From IMG/VR virus record IMGVR_UViG_3300005513_000301, positions 1 through 29,351 of that record: DNA of 29,351 nt; one strand, 5' to 3'. This document shows positions 296-6,796 of this stretch, one piece after another. A program made the translations under genes and the position numbers. This stretch comes from a virus. The notes beneath the pieces were generated by a model, which saw only the letters and a program-made list of their open reading frames with translations, did no database searches and had not been told where the DNA came from. How positions within the stretch are numbered: the stretch's first letter is position 1; the number at the start of each line of letters is the position of its first letter.

Positions 296-2878
296 ATGGC
301 CCAGCGTGACGCGGGCGGGGTAGTTTCGCCCGTCGATCAGCAGGCCGTGAGCGCGGCTGGCGGCAATGAAGACGCCGGCATCATCACCCACACCGGCGCC
401 GACTGGTTCTCGCCGCTCAACCCTCAGAAGCCCAGCGCTCCGCCAGAGGTGGCGGGGCGTCAACTTGACTTCCCGTCGGGCTACAACCTCACCGTTCAGC
501 CTCGCTCCTATGACGTCGTCAAGTTCGCCGAACTGCGGGCTTTGGCCGACGCCTATGACATCCTTCGGCTCGTAATCGAGACCCGCAAGGACCAGATGGC
601 GCGGCTGGAATGGGCCATCAAGCCGCGCAAGAAGACCAAGGGCAAGCAGGCGGACCAGAAGTCCGATCCGCGTGCCGAGGCGATCGATGCGTTCTTCCGG
701 TTCCCCGACAAGGTCAACGCGTGGGATGCCTGGCTGCGGATGCTGCTCGAGGACATGTTCGTCCTCGATGCGCCGGCGATGTTCGTCCGTCGCACGCGGG
801 CAGGGGACCTCTATGCCCTTGAGCCCATCGATGGGGGCACGATCAAGCGCGTCATCGACGCCTACGGCAGGACGCCGGCGCCGCCGTCGCCTGCCTATCA
901 GCAGGTGCTGAAGGGGCTTCCCGCTGTCGACTACATGACGCCGAACCGGGACATGTTCATGGCCATGCTTGGCCAAGGCGCCGTCGGCAATCGGACGGTC
1001 AACGGCCAGGCGAAGCGCTTTCCGGCCGGCGAACTGATCTATCGGCCGCGCAACATGCGGACCAATCGGGTGTACGGCTACAGCCCGGTCGAGCAGATCA
1101 TCCTCACGGTCAACACCGCTCTGCGCCGCCAGATCTTCACCCTGCAGTATTTCACCGAGGGGAACATTCCAGAGGCGTTCATCGGGGTGCCGGAAAGCTG
1201 GACGCCCGACCACATCAAGAGCTTCCAGGAGTGGTGGGACTCGGTCCTCGAAGGCAATACGGGCGCGCGCCGGCACGCCAAGTTCGTCCCGGGCGGGATG
1301 GACATCAAGGCGACGAAGGAGCCCGAACTGAAGGGCGTCTTCGACGAATGGCTGGCCCGTGTGGTCTGCTACGCCTTTTCGATCAATCCGCAGCCCTTCG
1401 TCTCGATGATGAACCGGGCCACGGCCCAGACCGCCAAGGAGGCCTCGCTAGAGGAAGGCCTCGCCCCGACCCAGCACTGGGTCAAGCAGATGATCGACTT
1501 CGTCATCGCGTCCGAATTCAACGCGCCTGATCTCGAGTTCGAATGGGCCGAAGAGGACGAGACAAACCCGGTCGATCAGGAGACGGTCCTTACCGGCTAC
1601 GCGACCAAAGGCGGCATTACGCTTAACGAACTCCGCGACAAGCTGGGGCTCGAAGCAGACGCCAATCCTGCTGCCAGCACGCTGATGGTGCTCACCCAGA
1701 CCGGCTATGTGCCGATCGACGCCTACGCCGCCCAGATGGAAGCGCAGCAGGCCAACACTGAGGCCACCCTGGCGGCCGCACAGGCCAAGCCGAAGGAAGA
1801 CGCGCCGGAGGGCAAGCCTGCTACTGGCAGCGCCTCCACGGGCCCGAAGAACGGCATCGAGAAGCTGCAGATGCCAACGGACACCAACCGAGCATTGCCG
1901 GTGAGCGTTCTGCAGCCGAAACTATCGAAGCTGAGCTGGGCGTGCGTACAGCATCTGGAGGCCCAAACTCTCGGTGACTTGCTCGACAAGATCAAGGAGC
2001 CGTCAGTCGAAAAGTTTGGCCGTTTTCCGCTGGATGAGATCGAAGGCGAGTTAGCGCGCTACGGGCTATTCGTTCGTCCCGAGAGGCTTGAGAAGGAGGT
2101 AGGCGAAGCAGCCTACGTCCCTTTCACCAAACGGGCGCTGGGGCCGATAGCCTACCCGCGCCGGAACACGCGGCGCGCGGCGAACGCGGCGGCCAGGATC
2201 TGGAACGGGGTCTTCGACCGTCAGGCCAAAGCCGTGGCAAGCGGAATCCGGGCTACGCTGTTCAAGGCATCTGAGGACGATCGCCAGACCGCCGATGGCT
2301 ACGTCGCCAGCCTCGATTTTTCACTAACCTCGTCGGAAAGCGCGGACTTCGCCCAACAGCTGGCCACTGTGGCGAGCGACTCCGGCTCGCTGGCATTCGC
2401 CCAGATCGGCGCGGATCAGGACATGTTCGAGCAGATCAACGATCGGGCTGTGGCCTGGTCGCAGGATCATGCTGCCGACCTGGTGACCTCGGTCAGCGAC
2501 ACGACACGCGAACTGGTGCGCCAGGCGATCGCCGATGGAACGGCCGAAGGGCTGTCGTCGGACGAGATCGCAGAGAGCATTGAGGCGCTCGGCGCCTTCT
2601 CGATGGAGCGTTCGCTGCTGATCGCCAACACCGAGATCGCCAACGCGAACAGCCAGGGCGCGCTGGTCGGCTACAAGGCCGCGGCGGATGCCGGCGTGAC
2701 CGTCAAGAAGGCGTGGCTCCTTGCCGACGAAGATGTCGACGATGAATGCGCCGACAATGCCGACGCTGGCCCGATCGATCTCGATGACGTGTTCCCGAGC
2801 GGGGATGACGCCCCGCTTGCCCATCCGCGGTGCAGGTGCGTGTTGATCCCGGTGGTTGGCGAGGATGGTGAAGAGTGA
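296..2878 (+). CDS. Portal protein fused to Mu gpF-like head morphogenesis domain, with alpha-CTD-like insertion
   Basis: This 860-residue protein should form the dodecameric ring at the capsid vertex through which DNA passes. Residues about 60-480 look like a siphovirus portal core (IETRKDQMARLEW near 100, then long helices ending around VKQMIDFVIASEF). Residues about 640-855 look like the Mu gpF/SPP1 gp7 minor head family: a helical region, then a C-terminal HPRCRC motif with H843, C846 and C848. Portal-MuF fusions are known in other phages. Residues about 534-595 between them resemble the RNA polymerase alpha C-terminal domain, with LSWACVQHLEAQTLGDLL aligning to helix 1 and GRFPLDEIEGEL to the helix-hairpin-helix; base composition looks less GC-rich there. 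The ATG at 296 has only a weak ribosome binding site. The stop overlaps the next gene's GTG by 4 bases. Confidence 0.88.
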   Translation: MAQRDAGGVVSPVDQQAVSAAGGNEDAGIITHTGADWFSPLNPQKPSAPPEVAGRQLDFPSGYNLTVQPRSYDVVKFAELRALADAYDILRLVIETRKDQMARLEWAIKPRKKTKGKQADQKSDPRAEAIDAFFRFPDKVNAWDAWLRMLLEDMFVLDAPAMFVRRTRAGDLYALEPIDGGTIKRVIDAYGRTPAPPSPAYQQVLKGLPAVDYMTPNRDMFMAMLGQGAVGNRTVNGQAKRFPAGELIYRPRNMRTNRVYGYSPVEQIILTVNTALRRQIFTLQYFTEGNIPEAFIGVPESWTPDHIKSFQEWWDSVLEGNTGARRHAKFVPGGMDIKATKEPELKGVFDEWLARVVCYAFSINPQPFVSMMNRATAQTAKEASLEEGLAPTQHWVKQMIDFVIASEFNAPDLEFEWAEEDETNPVDQETVLTGYATKGGITLNELRDKLGLEADANPAASTLMVLTQTGYVPIDAYAAQMEAQQANTEATLAAAQAKPKEDAPEGKPATGSASTGPKNGIEKLQMPTDTNRALPVSVLQPKLSKLSWACVQHLEAQTLGDLLDKIKEPSVEKFGRFPLDEIEGELARYGLFVRPERLEKEVGEAAYVPFTKRALGPIAYPRRNTRRAANAAARIWNGVFDRQAKAVASGIRATLFKASEDDRQTADGYVASLDFSLTSSESADFAQQLATVASDSGSLAFAQIGADQDMFEQINDRAVAWSQDHAADLVTSVSDTTRELVRQAIADGTAEGLSSDEIAESIEALGAFSMERSLLIANTEIANANSQGALVGYKAAADAGVTVKKAWLLADEDVDDECADNADAGPIDLDDVFPSGDDAPLAHPRCRCVLIPVVGEDGEE

Positions 2879-3291
2879 GTTCCCAAATGACGCCGGATAC
2901 GCTCATCGACGATGCGATCTGCCTGAGGCCATCGGCAATGGCCGCTCTGAAAAGTGTCTGCGTGTGGGAATTGAAGGACTTTGCCGAAGTCAGCGCCGCG
3001 CATCTTTTGAGGGTGCCTGGCTTTGGACGCACTTCACTCCAATCGCTACTCAAGCAACTGGCGGAGCTTGGAATTCGCCTCGGCCGAAACCTCACGCAAG
3101 AGCAGGCCAGCGACTCTTGTTATCGCGACATGGTGATCCACTACCAGTCCAAGGTGGCCGGCTATCAATCCGTCGCCGCGGCGGGCGTGTCTGAGCCGGG
3201 GAGCCAGCAGTCGCCGCCGCCTTTTCGCATCACCCTCTCGACCGGTCGCTCCATTGAAGCGTCGGCGGACACGTGGGCGTACCGAGACTGA
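2875..3291 (+). CDS. Small free-standing alpha-CTD-like protein
   Basis: A 138-residue protein starting at GTG 2875 inside the portal stop (GTGA overlap, translational coupling). An in-frame ATG at 2887 is an alternative start. Residues about 9-70 match the fold of the RNA polymerase alpha subunit C-terminal domain: a first helix ending in AALK, then WELKDF, then a VPGFGRTSLQSLL helix-hairpin-helix, then LAELGIRLG. By eye the residues at the E. coli R265 and N268 positions are Ser20 and Ala23, so UP-element DNA binding in the classical way looks unlikely. Residues 75-138 carry no motif I know. It sits between the portal and the protease-scaffold gene, and composition looks less GC-rich than the flanks. 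It could be a head-assembly partner of the portal insertion or a modulator of host transcription. The function is unproven. Confidence 0.72.
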   Translation: MSSQMTPDTLIDDAICLRPSAMAALKSVCVWELKDFAEVSAAHLLRVPGFGRTSLQSLLKQLAELGIRLGRNLTQEQASDSCYRDMVIHYQSKVAGYQSVAAAGVSEPGSQQSPPPFRITLSTGRSIEASADTWAYRD

Positions 3292-3329: not shown

Positions 3330-5132
3330 TTGACTGACCTTCAGATGTTCATTCCGATCACCAAGGTGGATGCCGCCAAGCGGCTCGTCTACGGCGTCGC
3401 CACGGCCGAGGTGAAGGATCGCTCCGGCGAAATCTGCGACTACGCCGGCACCAAGCCGCTCTACGAGAAGTGGTCCGGCGAAATCGCCAAGGCGTCCGAC
3501 GGCAAGAGCCTGGGCAACCTCCGCGCGATGCACGGCAAGGTCGCGGCCGGCAAGGTCACCGAGATCAACTTCAACGACGATCAGAAGCAGATCGAAATCT
3601 GCGCCAAGGTCGTCGACGATGCCGAGTGGAACAAGGTCGAGGAAGGTGTCTACACCGGCTTCAGCCAGGGCGGCTCCTACGTGAAGCGCTGGAAGGACGA
3701 CGAAGGCCTTCAGCGGTACATCGCCGAGCCGATCGAAGTTTCACTGGTCGACGTCCCTTGCCTCCCCACGGCGACGTTTGAGATGATCAAGGCGGACGGT
3801 GCCGTGGTGCAGAAGGCGTTCGCGACTGTTGCGCCCAAGGTGCCCACCAACGACGAGATCGCGGCCAAGGCGAAGGAACTGGCGAAGGCCGCCGGGGACG
3901 AGACCAAATGGCCAGACCATATCGAGGCGGCCGGCGCCGAACTGGCTAAGGCCGTTGTCGTGGCGCCGAAGGTCGAAGCCGAAAAGGTCTCCGAGCCCGT
4001 CGAGGATCCCCGCTCCGAAGTGGAGCAGGTGTGGAAGTCCAAGGACGGCCAGACGTTCAAGCTCAAGGCCGACGCCGTCAAGCACAACGAGGAGTTGGCC
4101 AAGGTCAGTTCGCCGGCCAAGCCCCTCGACGACGCCACCGCCGCGCTCGCCGCGGCGCTGGGCAAGGCCGACCTGTCGACCGATGGCCGTAAGGAAGAGG
4201 CCAAGGAAGGCGTCGCCATGAAGGACGGCTCCTATCCGATCGACGACAAGAAGAGCCTCGGTGACGCGATCGAGTCCTACGGCCGGGCGAAGAACAAGGC
4301 GGCCACCAAGCGCCACATCATCAAGCGGGCCAAGGCGCTGAAGATGACCGACATGCTGCCCGCCGACTGGCCGGGCAGCACCAAGAAGGACGACGCGGCC
4401 AAGGCAGCCGGTGCGACCGTCGAAAAGGCGATCAGCCTCTATGGCGTCGCCAACCTGGTCCAGCTGCTCGCCGCCATCAGCGATGCCGAGGAAGGCTTCG
4501 AACAGGACACCTATTGGGATTTTGGGGGCGCGATCTCCGCCAGCGACGATCTCAAGACCCGGTTCGGCGCACTGCTGGTGGAATTTGGCGATATCGTTGC
4601 CGAGGCGCTCGACGCGATCCTGTCGAGCACGTCGGACGAGGAATCCGCCGAGGCCATGGAGCGCTATGCGCCCGTGCTCGAGCTGATGAAGGCCGGTGCC
4701 CGTCACAGCAAGACGGACAAGGCGACCCTGCAGGCGGCGCACGACGCGCTGGTGAAGCTGGGCGCCGACTGCGGCATGGACAAATCGGCCGCCCCCGACC
4801 TCTCCAAGGCGGCGGACCTCACGAAGGTCCTCGCCGACAACGCCGACCTGAAGGCGTCAATGGAAAAGGCCATCGGCATGATGGCCGATGCCGGCAAAAC
4901 CATCACCGAGCTGCGCACCGAGGTGGACATGCTGAAGAAGCAGCCACTGCTCGGCGGCCCGGTCCAGCTTCAGGTCGTCAGCAAGGAGGACGAGTCCGTG
5001 ACCGCCGTTCGCAAGGCGGCCGAAACCGGCGACGCCAATGCCGTGGCGGTGGAGCTGATCAAGCAGTCCTTCGGCAATCCGTATCGCGGTCTGCCGGGCC
5101 TCGAAACGAAGCGGGACGTCCCCGCCCAATAG
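3330..5132 (+). CDS. XkdF-like prohead serine protease fused to scaffold
   Basis: About 600 residues from TTG 3330. The N-terminal 160 residues fit the XkdF-like S78-type capsid maturation protease family: AMHGKV with candidate catalytic H68, and GFSQGG with candidate nucleophile S112, followed by IEVSLVDVPCLP. This enzyme class cleaves scaffold and capsid precursors inside the prohead. A lysine/alanine-rich middle follows, with a segment (YPIDDKKSLGDAIESYGRAK, then HIIKRAKAL) that recurs in phage protease-scaffold proteins. The last 150 residues are helical and likely coiled coil (LADNADLKASMEKAIGMM), as expected for a scaffold. It lies directly upstream of the major capsid gene, the usual order. 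The start is the main uncertainty; GTG 3273 and ATG 3345 are alternatives. Confidence 0.85.
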   Translation: MTDLQMFIPITKVDAAKRLVYGVATAEVKDRSGEICDYAGTKPLYEKWSGEIAKASDGKSLGNLRAMHGKVAAGKVTEINFNDDQKQIEICAKVVDDAEWNKVEEGVYTGFSQGGSYVKRWKDDEGLQRYIAEPIEVSLVDVPCLPTATFEMIKADGAVVQKAFATVAPKVPTNDEIAAKAKELAKAAGDETKWPDHIEAAGAELAKAVVVAPKVEAEKVSEPVEDPRSEVEQVWKSKDGQTFKLKADAVKHNEELAKVSSPAKPLDDATAALAAALGKADLSTDGRKEEAKEGVAMKDGSYPIDDKKSLGDAIESYGRAKNKAATKRHIIKRAKALKMTDMLPADWPGSTKKDDAAKAAGATVEKAISLYGVANLVQLLAAISDAEEGFEQDTYWDFGGAISASDDLKTRFGALLVEFGDIVAEALDAILSSTSDEESAEAMERYAPVLELMKAGARHSKTDKATLQAAHDALVKLGADCGMDKSAAPDLSKAADLTKVLADNADLKASMEKAIGMMADAGKTITELRTEVDMLKKQPLLGGPVQLQVVSKEDESVTAVRKAAETGDANAVAVELIKQSFGNPYRGLPGLETKRDVPAQ

Positions 5133-5269: not shown

Positions 5270-6796
5270 ATGACTGCCCACGATCCCGGGCTTGCCCAGG
5301 CGACCCTGGACGCCTTCCGCAAGGCGTTCGAATCCCCGATGGCCGGCGACCCGATCCTCGCCAAGATGCTCGAGAAGAGCACCTTTGCGCAGAGCGCGTC
5401 GGCGATTTCCGGTCTCACCTATTACGACCTCGAGGCCGGCGCCAAGTTCCTGTACCCGGTCCTGACCCCGCTGCGGAACGTCATTCCGCGCGTTTCCGGC
5501 AAGGGCGGCATTCAGGCCAACTGGCGCGGCGTTACCGGCGTCAACACGTCGGGCATCCGCCTCGGCGTGTCCGGTGGCAACCGCGGCGGCGTGATGGCTG
5601 TCACCACCCAGGACTACACCGCGTCCTATAAGGGCATCGGCCTCGAAGGCAACGTCGACTTCGAGGCGCAGTACGCTGGGCAGGAATTCGACGATATCCG
5701 CGCCATTGCGGCCAAGACGCTGCTCGAAGCCACCATGATCGGCGAGGAGCAGATCATTCTCGGTGGCAACGGCTCGGTCAATCTCGGCACCACGCCAACC
5801 CCGACCGTGGCCGGCGTTGCATCCGGCGGTGCGCTGGCCGACGCCACCTACTCGGTGATCTGTGTCGCGCTCACCCTCGACGGCTACCTCAATGGCTCCG
5901 TCGCCGGCGGTATCCAGGCGCAGATCACCCGCACCAATGCGGATGCGTCGACCGATACCTTTGGCGGCGGTGCCGCGCAGCAGTCTGCCAATGCCACCGC
6001 CACGGTCTCCGGCGGCAGCGGCGCGGGCTCGGTGACTGCCAAGGTTGCGGTGGTCAAAGGCGCCGTCGCCTATGCGTGGTTCTGGGGCTCGGCCGGCTCC
6101 GAAAAGCTCGGCGCGATCACCACGATCAACTCGGTGGTCATCACCGCCGCTGCGGCTGGCACGCAGACCGCGCTGTCGCTCGGCACCACCGACTATTCGT
6201 CCAATGCCCTGGTGTTCGATGGCCTGCTGTCCCTGGCCGCGAAGTCCGGCAGCAACTCCTACTTTGCCTCGCAGCCGGTAGGCACGCTGGGCACCGGCAC
6301 CGCGCTGACGTCCGATGGGGCAGGCGGCATCGTCGAGATCGATACGGCGCTGAAGTCCTTCTGGGACAACTACCGCCTGTCGCCCGACACGATCTGGGTG
6401 AACAGCCAGGAAGCGCTGAACATCTCGAAGAAGATTCTCGCCGGCAGCGCCACTGCCGCGCAGCGCTTCGTCTTCGAGAGCGAGCAGTCGGCCCTCGGCG
6501 GCGGCATCATGGTCCGCACCTACCTCAACCGCTTCTCGATGGCGGGCGGGTCGGTGATCGACATCAAGGTGCATCCCAACATGCCGGCGGGCACGATCCT
6601 GTTCACCACCAACAAGCTGCCTTACCCGCTGTCGAACGTCGGCAACGTGATGCAGATCCGCACCCGCCAGGACTACTACAACATCGCCTGGCCGCTCCGC
6701 TCGCGTAAGTACGAGCAGGGCGTCTACGCCGACGAGGTGCTGCAGCACTATTTCACCCCGTCCCTCGGCATCATCACCAACATCGCCAACGGCTGA
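5270..6796 (+). CDS. Major capsid protein (HK97-like fold, with inserted beta domain)
   Basis: A 508-residue protein starting at ATG 5270 with CGGAG 6-10 bases upstream. Position after the protease-scaffold gene and before the head-tail connector, together with the residue pattern (YPVLTPLRNVIPRV near 65, a long helix containing TLLEATMIGEEQIILGG near 150-165, and a C-terminal block ending in QHYFTPSLGI), identify it as the shell subunit. Residues about 173-310 (starting near VAGVASGG, with VAYAWFWGSAG and SVVIT) look like an immunoglobulin- or fibronectin-like insertion of the surface-exposed kind found in several phage capsid proteins; the core resumes near FWDNYRLSPDTIWVNSQEAL. No separate delta domain is seen, in keeping with the separate scaffold. 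The assignment is by context and pattern, not by a search. Confidence 0.88.
   Translation: MTAHDPGLAQATLDAFRKAFESPMAGDPILAKMLEKSTFAQSASAISGLTYYDLEAGAKFLYPVLTPLRNVIPRVSGKGGIQANWRGVTGVNTSGIRLGVSGGNRGGVMAVTTQDYTASYKGIGLEGNVDFEAQYAGQEFDDIRAIAAKTLLEATMIGEEQIILGGNGSVNLGTTPTPTVAGVASGGALADATYSVICVALTLDGYLNGSVAGGIQAQITRTNADASTDTFGGGAAQQSANATATVSGGSGAGSVTAKVAVVKGAVAYAWFWGSAGSEKLGAITTINSVVITAAAAGTQTALSLGTTDYSSNALVFDGLLSLAAKSGSNSYFASQPVGTLGTGTALTSDGAGGIVEIDTALKSFWDNYRLSPDTIWVNSQEALNISKKILAGSATAAQRFVFESEQSALGGGIMVRTYLNRFSMAGGSVIDIKVHPNMPAGTILFTTNKLPYPLSNVGNVMQIRTRQDYYNIAWPLRSRKYEQGVYADEVLQHYFTPSLGIITNIANG

Follow-up and report, generated by a model that had tools for sequence, protein, structure and literature searches.

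An RNA polymerase alphaCTD-like domain in the linker of a phage portal-MuF fusion and a free-standing alphaCTD-like protein encoded next to it

Organization of the head module

The window, which is the whole 29,351-base stretch of viral DNA analysed here, opens in the head module of a tailed phage. The portal gene is followed by an ORF of 138 amino acids, a protease-like gene and the gene for the probable major capsid protein, and then by connector, tape measure, tail and lysis genes. The features of the head module are listed below.

296..2878, + strand: portal-MuF fusion gene, 860 aa (Pfam PF04860 and PF04233; phrog_2662)
1895..2074, + strand: alphaCTD-like insert in the portal-MuF linker, aa ~534-593 (PDB and NCBIfam matches, shuffles, structural model, linker length)
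2875..3291, + strand: free-standing alphaCTD-like protein, 138 aa, GTG start (PDB, NCBIfam rpoA, custom HMM)
2917..3093, + strand: alphaCTD-like part of the 138-aa protein, aa ~15-73, with the hairpin GFGRTSL (sequence matches, residue alignment)
3345..5132, + strand (listed ORF from 3273): head maturation protease-like gene (phrog_9427 and the phrog_80 protease)
5270..6796, + strand: probable major capsid protein, 508 aa (phrog_13692; Arthrobacter phage homologues annotated as major capsid protein)

Judged by its domain matches, the 860-residue ORF is a portal-MuF fusion, since the portal core (PF04860, residues 98-451, 52.7 bits against a Pfam cut-off of 39.1) and the Mu_F domain (PF04233, residues 741-851, 40 bits against 29.6) are both found over cut-off in one chain. 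The portal family phrog_2662 spans nearly the whole ORF (E=1.4e-106). The GTG of the 138-aa gene overlaps the portal stop codon by 4 nt (GTGA). At its other end, the 138-aa gene is overlapped by the protease ORF only if the latter starts at GTG 3273; the alignments of protease homologues begin at residue 23-24 of the listed ORF, which makes ATG 3345 the likelier start. A search for defence families (PADLOC) and a plasmid search gave no match.

The portal linker and its alphaCTD-like domain

An earlier note on this DNA had placed two domains resembling the C-terminal domain of the RNA polymerase alpha subunit (alphaCTD) at portal residues 534-595 (1895-2080) and at residues 9-70 of the following protein (2899-3084), and both the coordinates and the reading frames are right. 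For the portal segment, the matches are individually weak, and all of them are of one kind. In a phmmer search of PDB chains, nine out of nine matches were RNAP alpha subunits (best E=0.035), with 3gfk_B, 1z3e_B and 3ihq_B as the best, and the five NCBIfam matches were likewise all to rpoA (E=0.021-0.095); Pfam, including PF03118 with its gathering cut-off of 23.8 bits, returned no match for the segment. With a custom HMM derived from 68 alphaCTDs of cells and phages, the score of the segment was reached by 14 of 50,000 shuffles and by one of 14,934 real 101-aa tiles.

The AlphaFold2 model of the segment, for which 24 further alphaCTD-type rows were supplied in the input alignment, has a mean pLDDT of 86-92 over model residues 21-70, and its predicted helices (22-31, 36-43, 46-51 and 53-65) follow the alphaCTD order in a four-helix helix-hairpin-helix (HhH) arrangement. 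Foldseek placed the alphaCTD 1z3e_B at the top with a probability of 1.00, and nearly all leading matches were RNAP alpha. VIA-align gave a Z of 8.1 for alphaCTD, a middling value for a helical domain, with other HhH domains, among them a RAD51-paralogue, next at Z 5-6. Because alphaCTDs were supplied in the alignment, the model tests compatibility with the fold and is not an independent discovery of it. Altogether, the portal linker at residues ~534-593 appears to hold an alphaCTD-like domain, and the evidence for it is moderate but consistent.

The adjoining 138-aa protein

The sequence resemblance of the 138-aa protein to alphaCTD is secure. All 25 of its phmmer matches among PDB chains were to RNAP alpha (best E=3.4e-4), the best score being obtained against 9zum_A, the Caulobacter alphaCTD; NCBIfam gave rpoA only (8/8, best E=6.4e-5); and none of 50,000 shuffles reached the 41.1 bits that the protein scored with the 68-sequence HMM. 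The comparison with PF03118 suggested in the earlier note fell short, with 13.6 bits for the small protein, under the cut-off of 23.8, and no match for the portal segment. The suggested structure prediction succeeded in part, yielding the homologue-informed HhH model of the portal segment and, for the 138-aa protein from its single sequence, an uninformative model with a pLDDT of 45, the Foldseek matches of which were dismissed as meaningless.

Contact residues and surfaces

In E. coli alphaCTD, R265, N268 and K298 are the established contacts with DNA, residue 261 that with sigma and residues 285-288 those with CRP. At positions 265, 268 and 298 the portal insert has Leu, Ala and Phe and the 138-aa protein Ser, Ala and Thr, in agreement with the residues that the earlier note gave for the first two positions; its view that classical DNA binding is unlikely is supported, and K298 is lost as well in both proteins. 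In contrast, R265 and K298 are kept in 23/23 and N268 in 18/23 of the other phage alphaCTDs. Glutamate 261 is replaced by Lys in the portal insert and by Cys in the 138-aa protein, and the CRP-contact patch is mostly changed in both; these positions are mostly retained in the other phage alphaCTDs. Of the hairpin, G296 and R297 persist in both proteins (as FGR), and S299 is additionally lost in the portal insert. The net charge is -1 for the insert and +4 for the domain of the 138-aa protein. As far as can be judged from the alignment, both domains appear to have kept the fold, and the known binding faces of alphaCTD are gone. The loss of R265, N268, K298 and most of the sigma- and CRP-contacting residues leaves both DNA binding of the classical type and imitation of the host polymerase unsupported for either protein, and the changes at residue 261 and in most of 285-288 speak against the suggestion in the earlier note that host transcription factors might be captured.

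Composition and origin

The lower GC content that had been noticed for both segments is real, with 57.0% in the portal insert and 57.5% in the domain segment of the 138-aa gene, compared with a mean of 65.1%; these values lie at the 3.5th and 4.1st percentile, respectively, of windows of the same length. GC3 is 0.68 and 0.66, respectively, and 0.80-0.88 in the neighbouring coding sequence. By their composition, both segments are foreign, the insert in the portal-MuF fusion as well as the domain of the 138-aa gene. The two domains gave no BLASTP alignment with each other and are thus not detectably paralogous. With no detectable paralogy and different best matches, independent acquisition fits better than duplication.

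Distribution among relatives

No alphaCTD insert was found in alignments with 22 full-length portal-MuF relatives, which include two Brevundimonas phages and the relatives most similar in capsid protein, and searches of the relatives turned up no alphaCTD-like small gene. At 199 residues, the portal-MuF linker of the window is longer than that of any of the 14 relatives measured, in which it spans 108-175. Across portal-family records, PF03118 was matched in 0/44, 0/7 and 1/48; the one case is a sub-threshold match at the C-terminus of the L065 portal, a region that resembles a CdiA-type toxin end, and the match was treated as chance. Since PF03118 also misses the window's own portal insert, the absence of the insert in relatives rests on the alignments and the combined HMM. 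The insert and the small gene were found only in the window and in two near-identical contigs, L005 and L006; weak tape-measure matches in L099 and L100 were judged to be due to chance. The matched system proposed in the earlier note fits this co-presence, neither part having been found in any relative, but the three sequences represent one evolutionary event, and thus the pairing itself is not demonstrated. On the whole, what the earlier note observed is borne out, and its interpretation in part.

The linker is occupied differently elsewhere. L118:687-4202 encodes a portal of 1,172 aa with inorganic pyrophosphatase (InPase) and ADP-ribosyltransferase domains between the portal core and Mu_F, from which the portal-MuF linker appears to be a domain-acceptor site. 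The earlier note had overlooked both the fusion of portal and MuF in the window and the position of the insert in this same linker.

The slot between the portal and protease genes also holds a conserved gene of ~68-80 aa in L101 (4723-4923) and, at equivalent positions, in L017, L018, L023 and L038. Its sequence (VTKSPVDLEGT...GAGTYTIA...) is unrelated to the 138-aa gene sharing that slot and had no match in NCBIfam. Separately, in L031:4926-13572, L065:2178-9959 and L074:2485-8139 (also in L019 and L024-L033) a variable toxin-like portal C-terminus replaces Mu_F. In arrays of this type the portal is followed by a small ORF and then by at least one further portal-like copy; several of these copies are truncated, starting within the portal core, and their C-terminal domains differ. 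Such arrays look like orphan cassettes of a polymorphic toxin system on a phage portal.

Possible roles of the two domains

The reading that we favour, with somewhat less than even confidence, is that a foreign alphaCTD fold entered an acceptor slot in a head protein and was retained as a module for protein interaction carried on the head, together with a translationally coupled free partner. The linker would be a site in the head protein where additional domains are tolerated. As the C-terminal part of the portal would face the capsid interior, about twelve copies of the domain would be displayed on the portal face turned towards the head, and we infer both this location and the presence of the domains in the virion from the protein family. 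With the DNA, sigma and CRP contacts lost and the fold kept, the portal domain would most likely serve as a protein-protein adaptor. Its likeliest partner would be the free 138-aa protein, which would be made by coupled translation within the same head-assembly programme and so be recruited to the portal, where it would act as an assembly factor or else be packaged as cargo for delivery together with the DNA; the latter role would parallel proposals for other MuF- and portal-fused domains. This interpretation draws on the identities of the two domains, the longest linker, the low GC3, the GTGA overlap, the L118 linker, published fusions and the loss of contact residues. Several points count against it. 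First, with a single carrier lineage there is no conservation showing selection on the insert or on the 138-aa gene. Next, the lack of similarity between the two domains leaves nothing to suggest homotypic pairing. Finally, other phage alphaCTD genes, where the neighbours were checked, mainly lie beside replication rather than head genes, and the individual E-values of the portal segment are weak. The pairing is something that we infer from one lineage, and it is doubtful that the two proteins form a two-part portal docking system, rebuilt from the alphaCTD fold, that controls packaging or loads a partner for delivery.

A reading that we also take to be possible, if less than probable, is that two separate recent acquisitions occurred with no joint function, the linker and the gap between portal and protease genes being permissive slots, so that the insert is a tolerated passenger and the 138-aa gene a moron of the alphaCTD-like type common in phages, acting elsewhere. 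The confinement of both to one lineage, the low GC3 of both segments, the presence of a different ~68 aa gene in the portal-protease slot of several relatives, the wide occurrence of free alphaCTD-like genes in phages and the missing paralogy by sequence all agree with this, although it is hard to regard as unrelated two rare alphaCTD-type gains that adjoin each other and have lost the same DNA-contact residues.

A role in nucleic-acid handling on the head side, where the HhH hairpins would bind packaged DNA or RNA non-specifically beside the MuF domain and aid DNA entry, retention or ejection, seems unlikely. The hairpin glycine and the basic residue after it are kept in both proteins and the 138-aa domain is positively charged, and MuF-type proteins are located at the portal, all of which would suit such a role; however, the three DNA-contact residues are gone in both, S299 as well in the portal, and the portal insert carries a net negative charge.

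A decoy for host transcription, in which alphaCTD mimics would titrate away sigma or activators, either at a late stage of infection or once injected, is very unlikely. Other phages do encode alphaCTD proteins, the fold match is to RNAP alphaCTD, and, according to PMC5512222, the phage T4 Alt protein is a virion protein that modifies the RNAP alpha subunit, yet residue 261 and most of the CRP-contact patch are altered in both proteins, and a structural role is what their expression from the head operon suggests. Finally, it is highly improbable that the helical portal segment resembles alphaCTD by chance and that the 138-aa protein alone is a true relative. In favour of chance are the weak E-values of 0.02-0.04, a score that some shuffles reach, a weak PF03118 match at the unrelated-looking L065 portal C-terminus and a model helped by supplied homologues. 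Against it, every match in two libraries is an alphaCTD and spans the whole domain, the alignment takes in the hairpin and all four helices, and the segment is foreign by GC3 and adjacent to a gene that certainly encodes an alphaCTD.

Portals are regarded as conservative machines. Under the favoured reading of a head-borne interaction module, a transcription-type fold between the portal core and MuF would mean that the linker accepts non-enzymatic modules too, and if the 138-aa protein docks on the portal, the pair would offer a genetically simple model for the loading of phage proteins into heads.

Comparison with known systems

The bacterial RNAP alphaCTD (PF03118; 1z3e, 9zum, 1lb2) has in common with the pair in the window the GR hairpin and, in the homologue-informed model of the portal insert, the four-helix HhH fold and the order of the helices; the 138-aa protein probably has this fold too. 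In contrast, the window domains lie outside any polymerase subunit, score below the Pfam cut-off or have no match, are without R265, N268, K298 and the canonical residue 261, and are mostly changed at 285-288. The domain is mobile in bacteria too, as it is found in large proteins of the types ROS_MUCR-alphaCTD-SNF2 helicase (L208:784-5760) and NERD-kinase-kinase-alphaCTD (L209:3446-7738).

A free-standing alphaCTD-like protein is by itself unremarkable and common in phages. A motif-based scan found 50 other viral contigs (L220-L269) that encode alphaCTD-like proteins, and BFVD holds several entries named 'RNA polymerase, alpha subunit, C-terminal' of 111-135 aa (mostly 128-135) and one of 240 aa. 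The 138-aa protein resembles these in size and single-domain build; unlike the 23 compared, it lacks both R265 and K298, and whereas the free phage genes checked have mainly DNA polymerase, exonuclease and methylase genes as neighbours, the 138-aa gene adjoins a portal gene. The co-occurrence survey proposed in the earlier note was negative, as a PF04860 portal or Mu_F was matched in none of the 47 other alphaCTD contigs searched, many of them short fragments. In the Brevundimonas phages vB_BpoS-Polewnik and Strzyga, the portal-MuF and capsid proteins are ~50% and 65-66% identical, respectively, to those of the window, but neither the insert nor the small gene was found.

MuF/portal fusions with effector domains, described among polyvalent proteins (PMC5512222), and fusions of ART and Nudix domains to MuF/portal proteins (PMC9503650) have been proposed to be packaged and injected. 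They share with the window portal an extra domain on a portal-MuF head protein, but bear enzymes where the window has a non-enzymatic interaction fold, and no alphaCTD was found in the passages searched in these papers. For the domain inserted in the window portal, Pfam, NCBIfam and PADLOC gave no enzymatic or toxic domain, with alphaCTD-type matches only. The earlier note knew of no described case, and indeed no paper on alphaCTD in portals was found in the literature searched. Within that literature, the combination of the insert with a free alphaCTD partner is undescribed, while each part is a variant of a known arrangement, and to the settings in which the alphaCTD fold is known to be reused it adds a case apparently without the DNA-contact surface.
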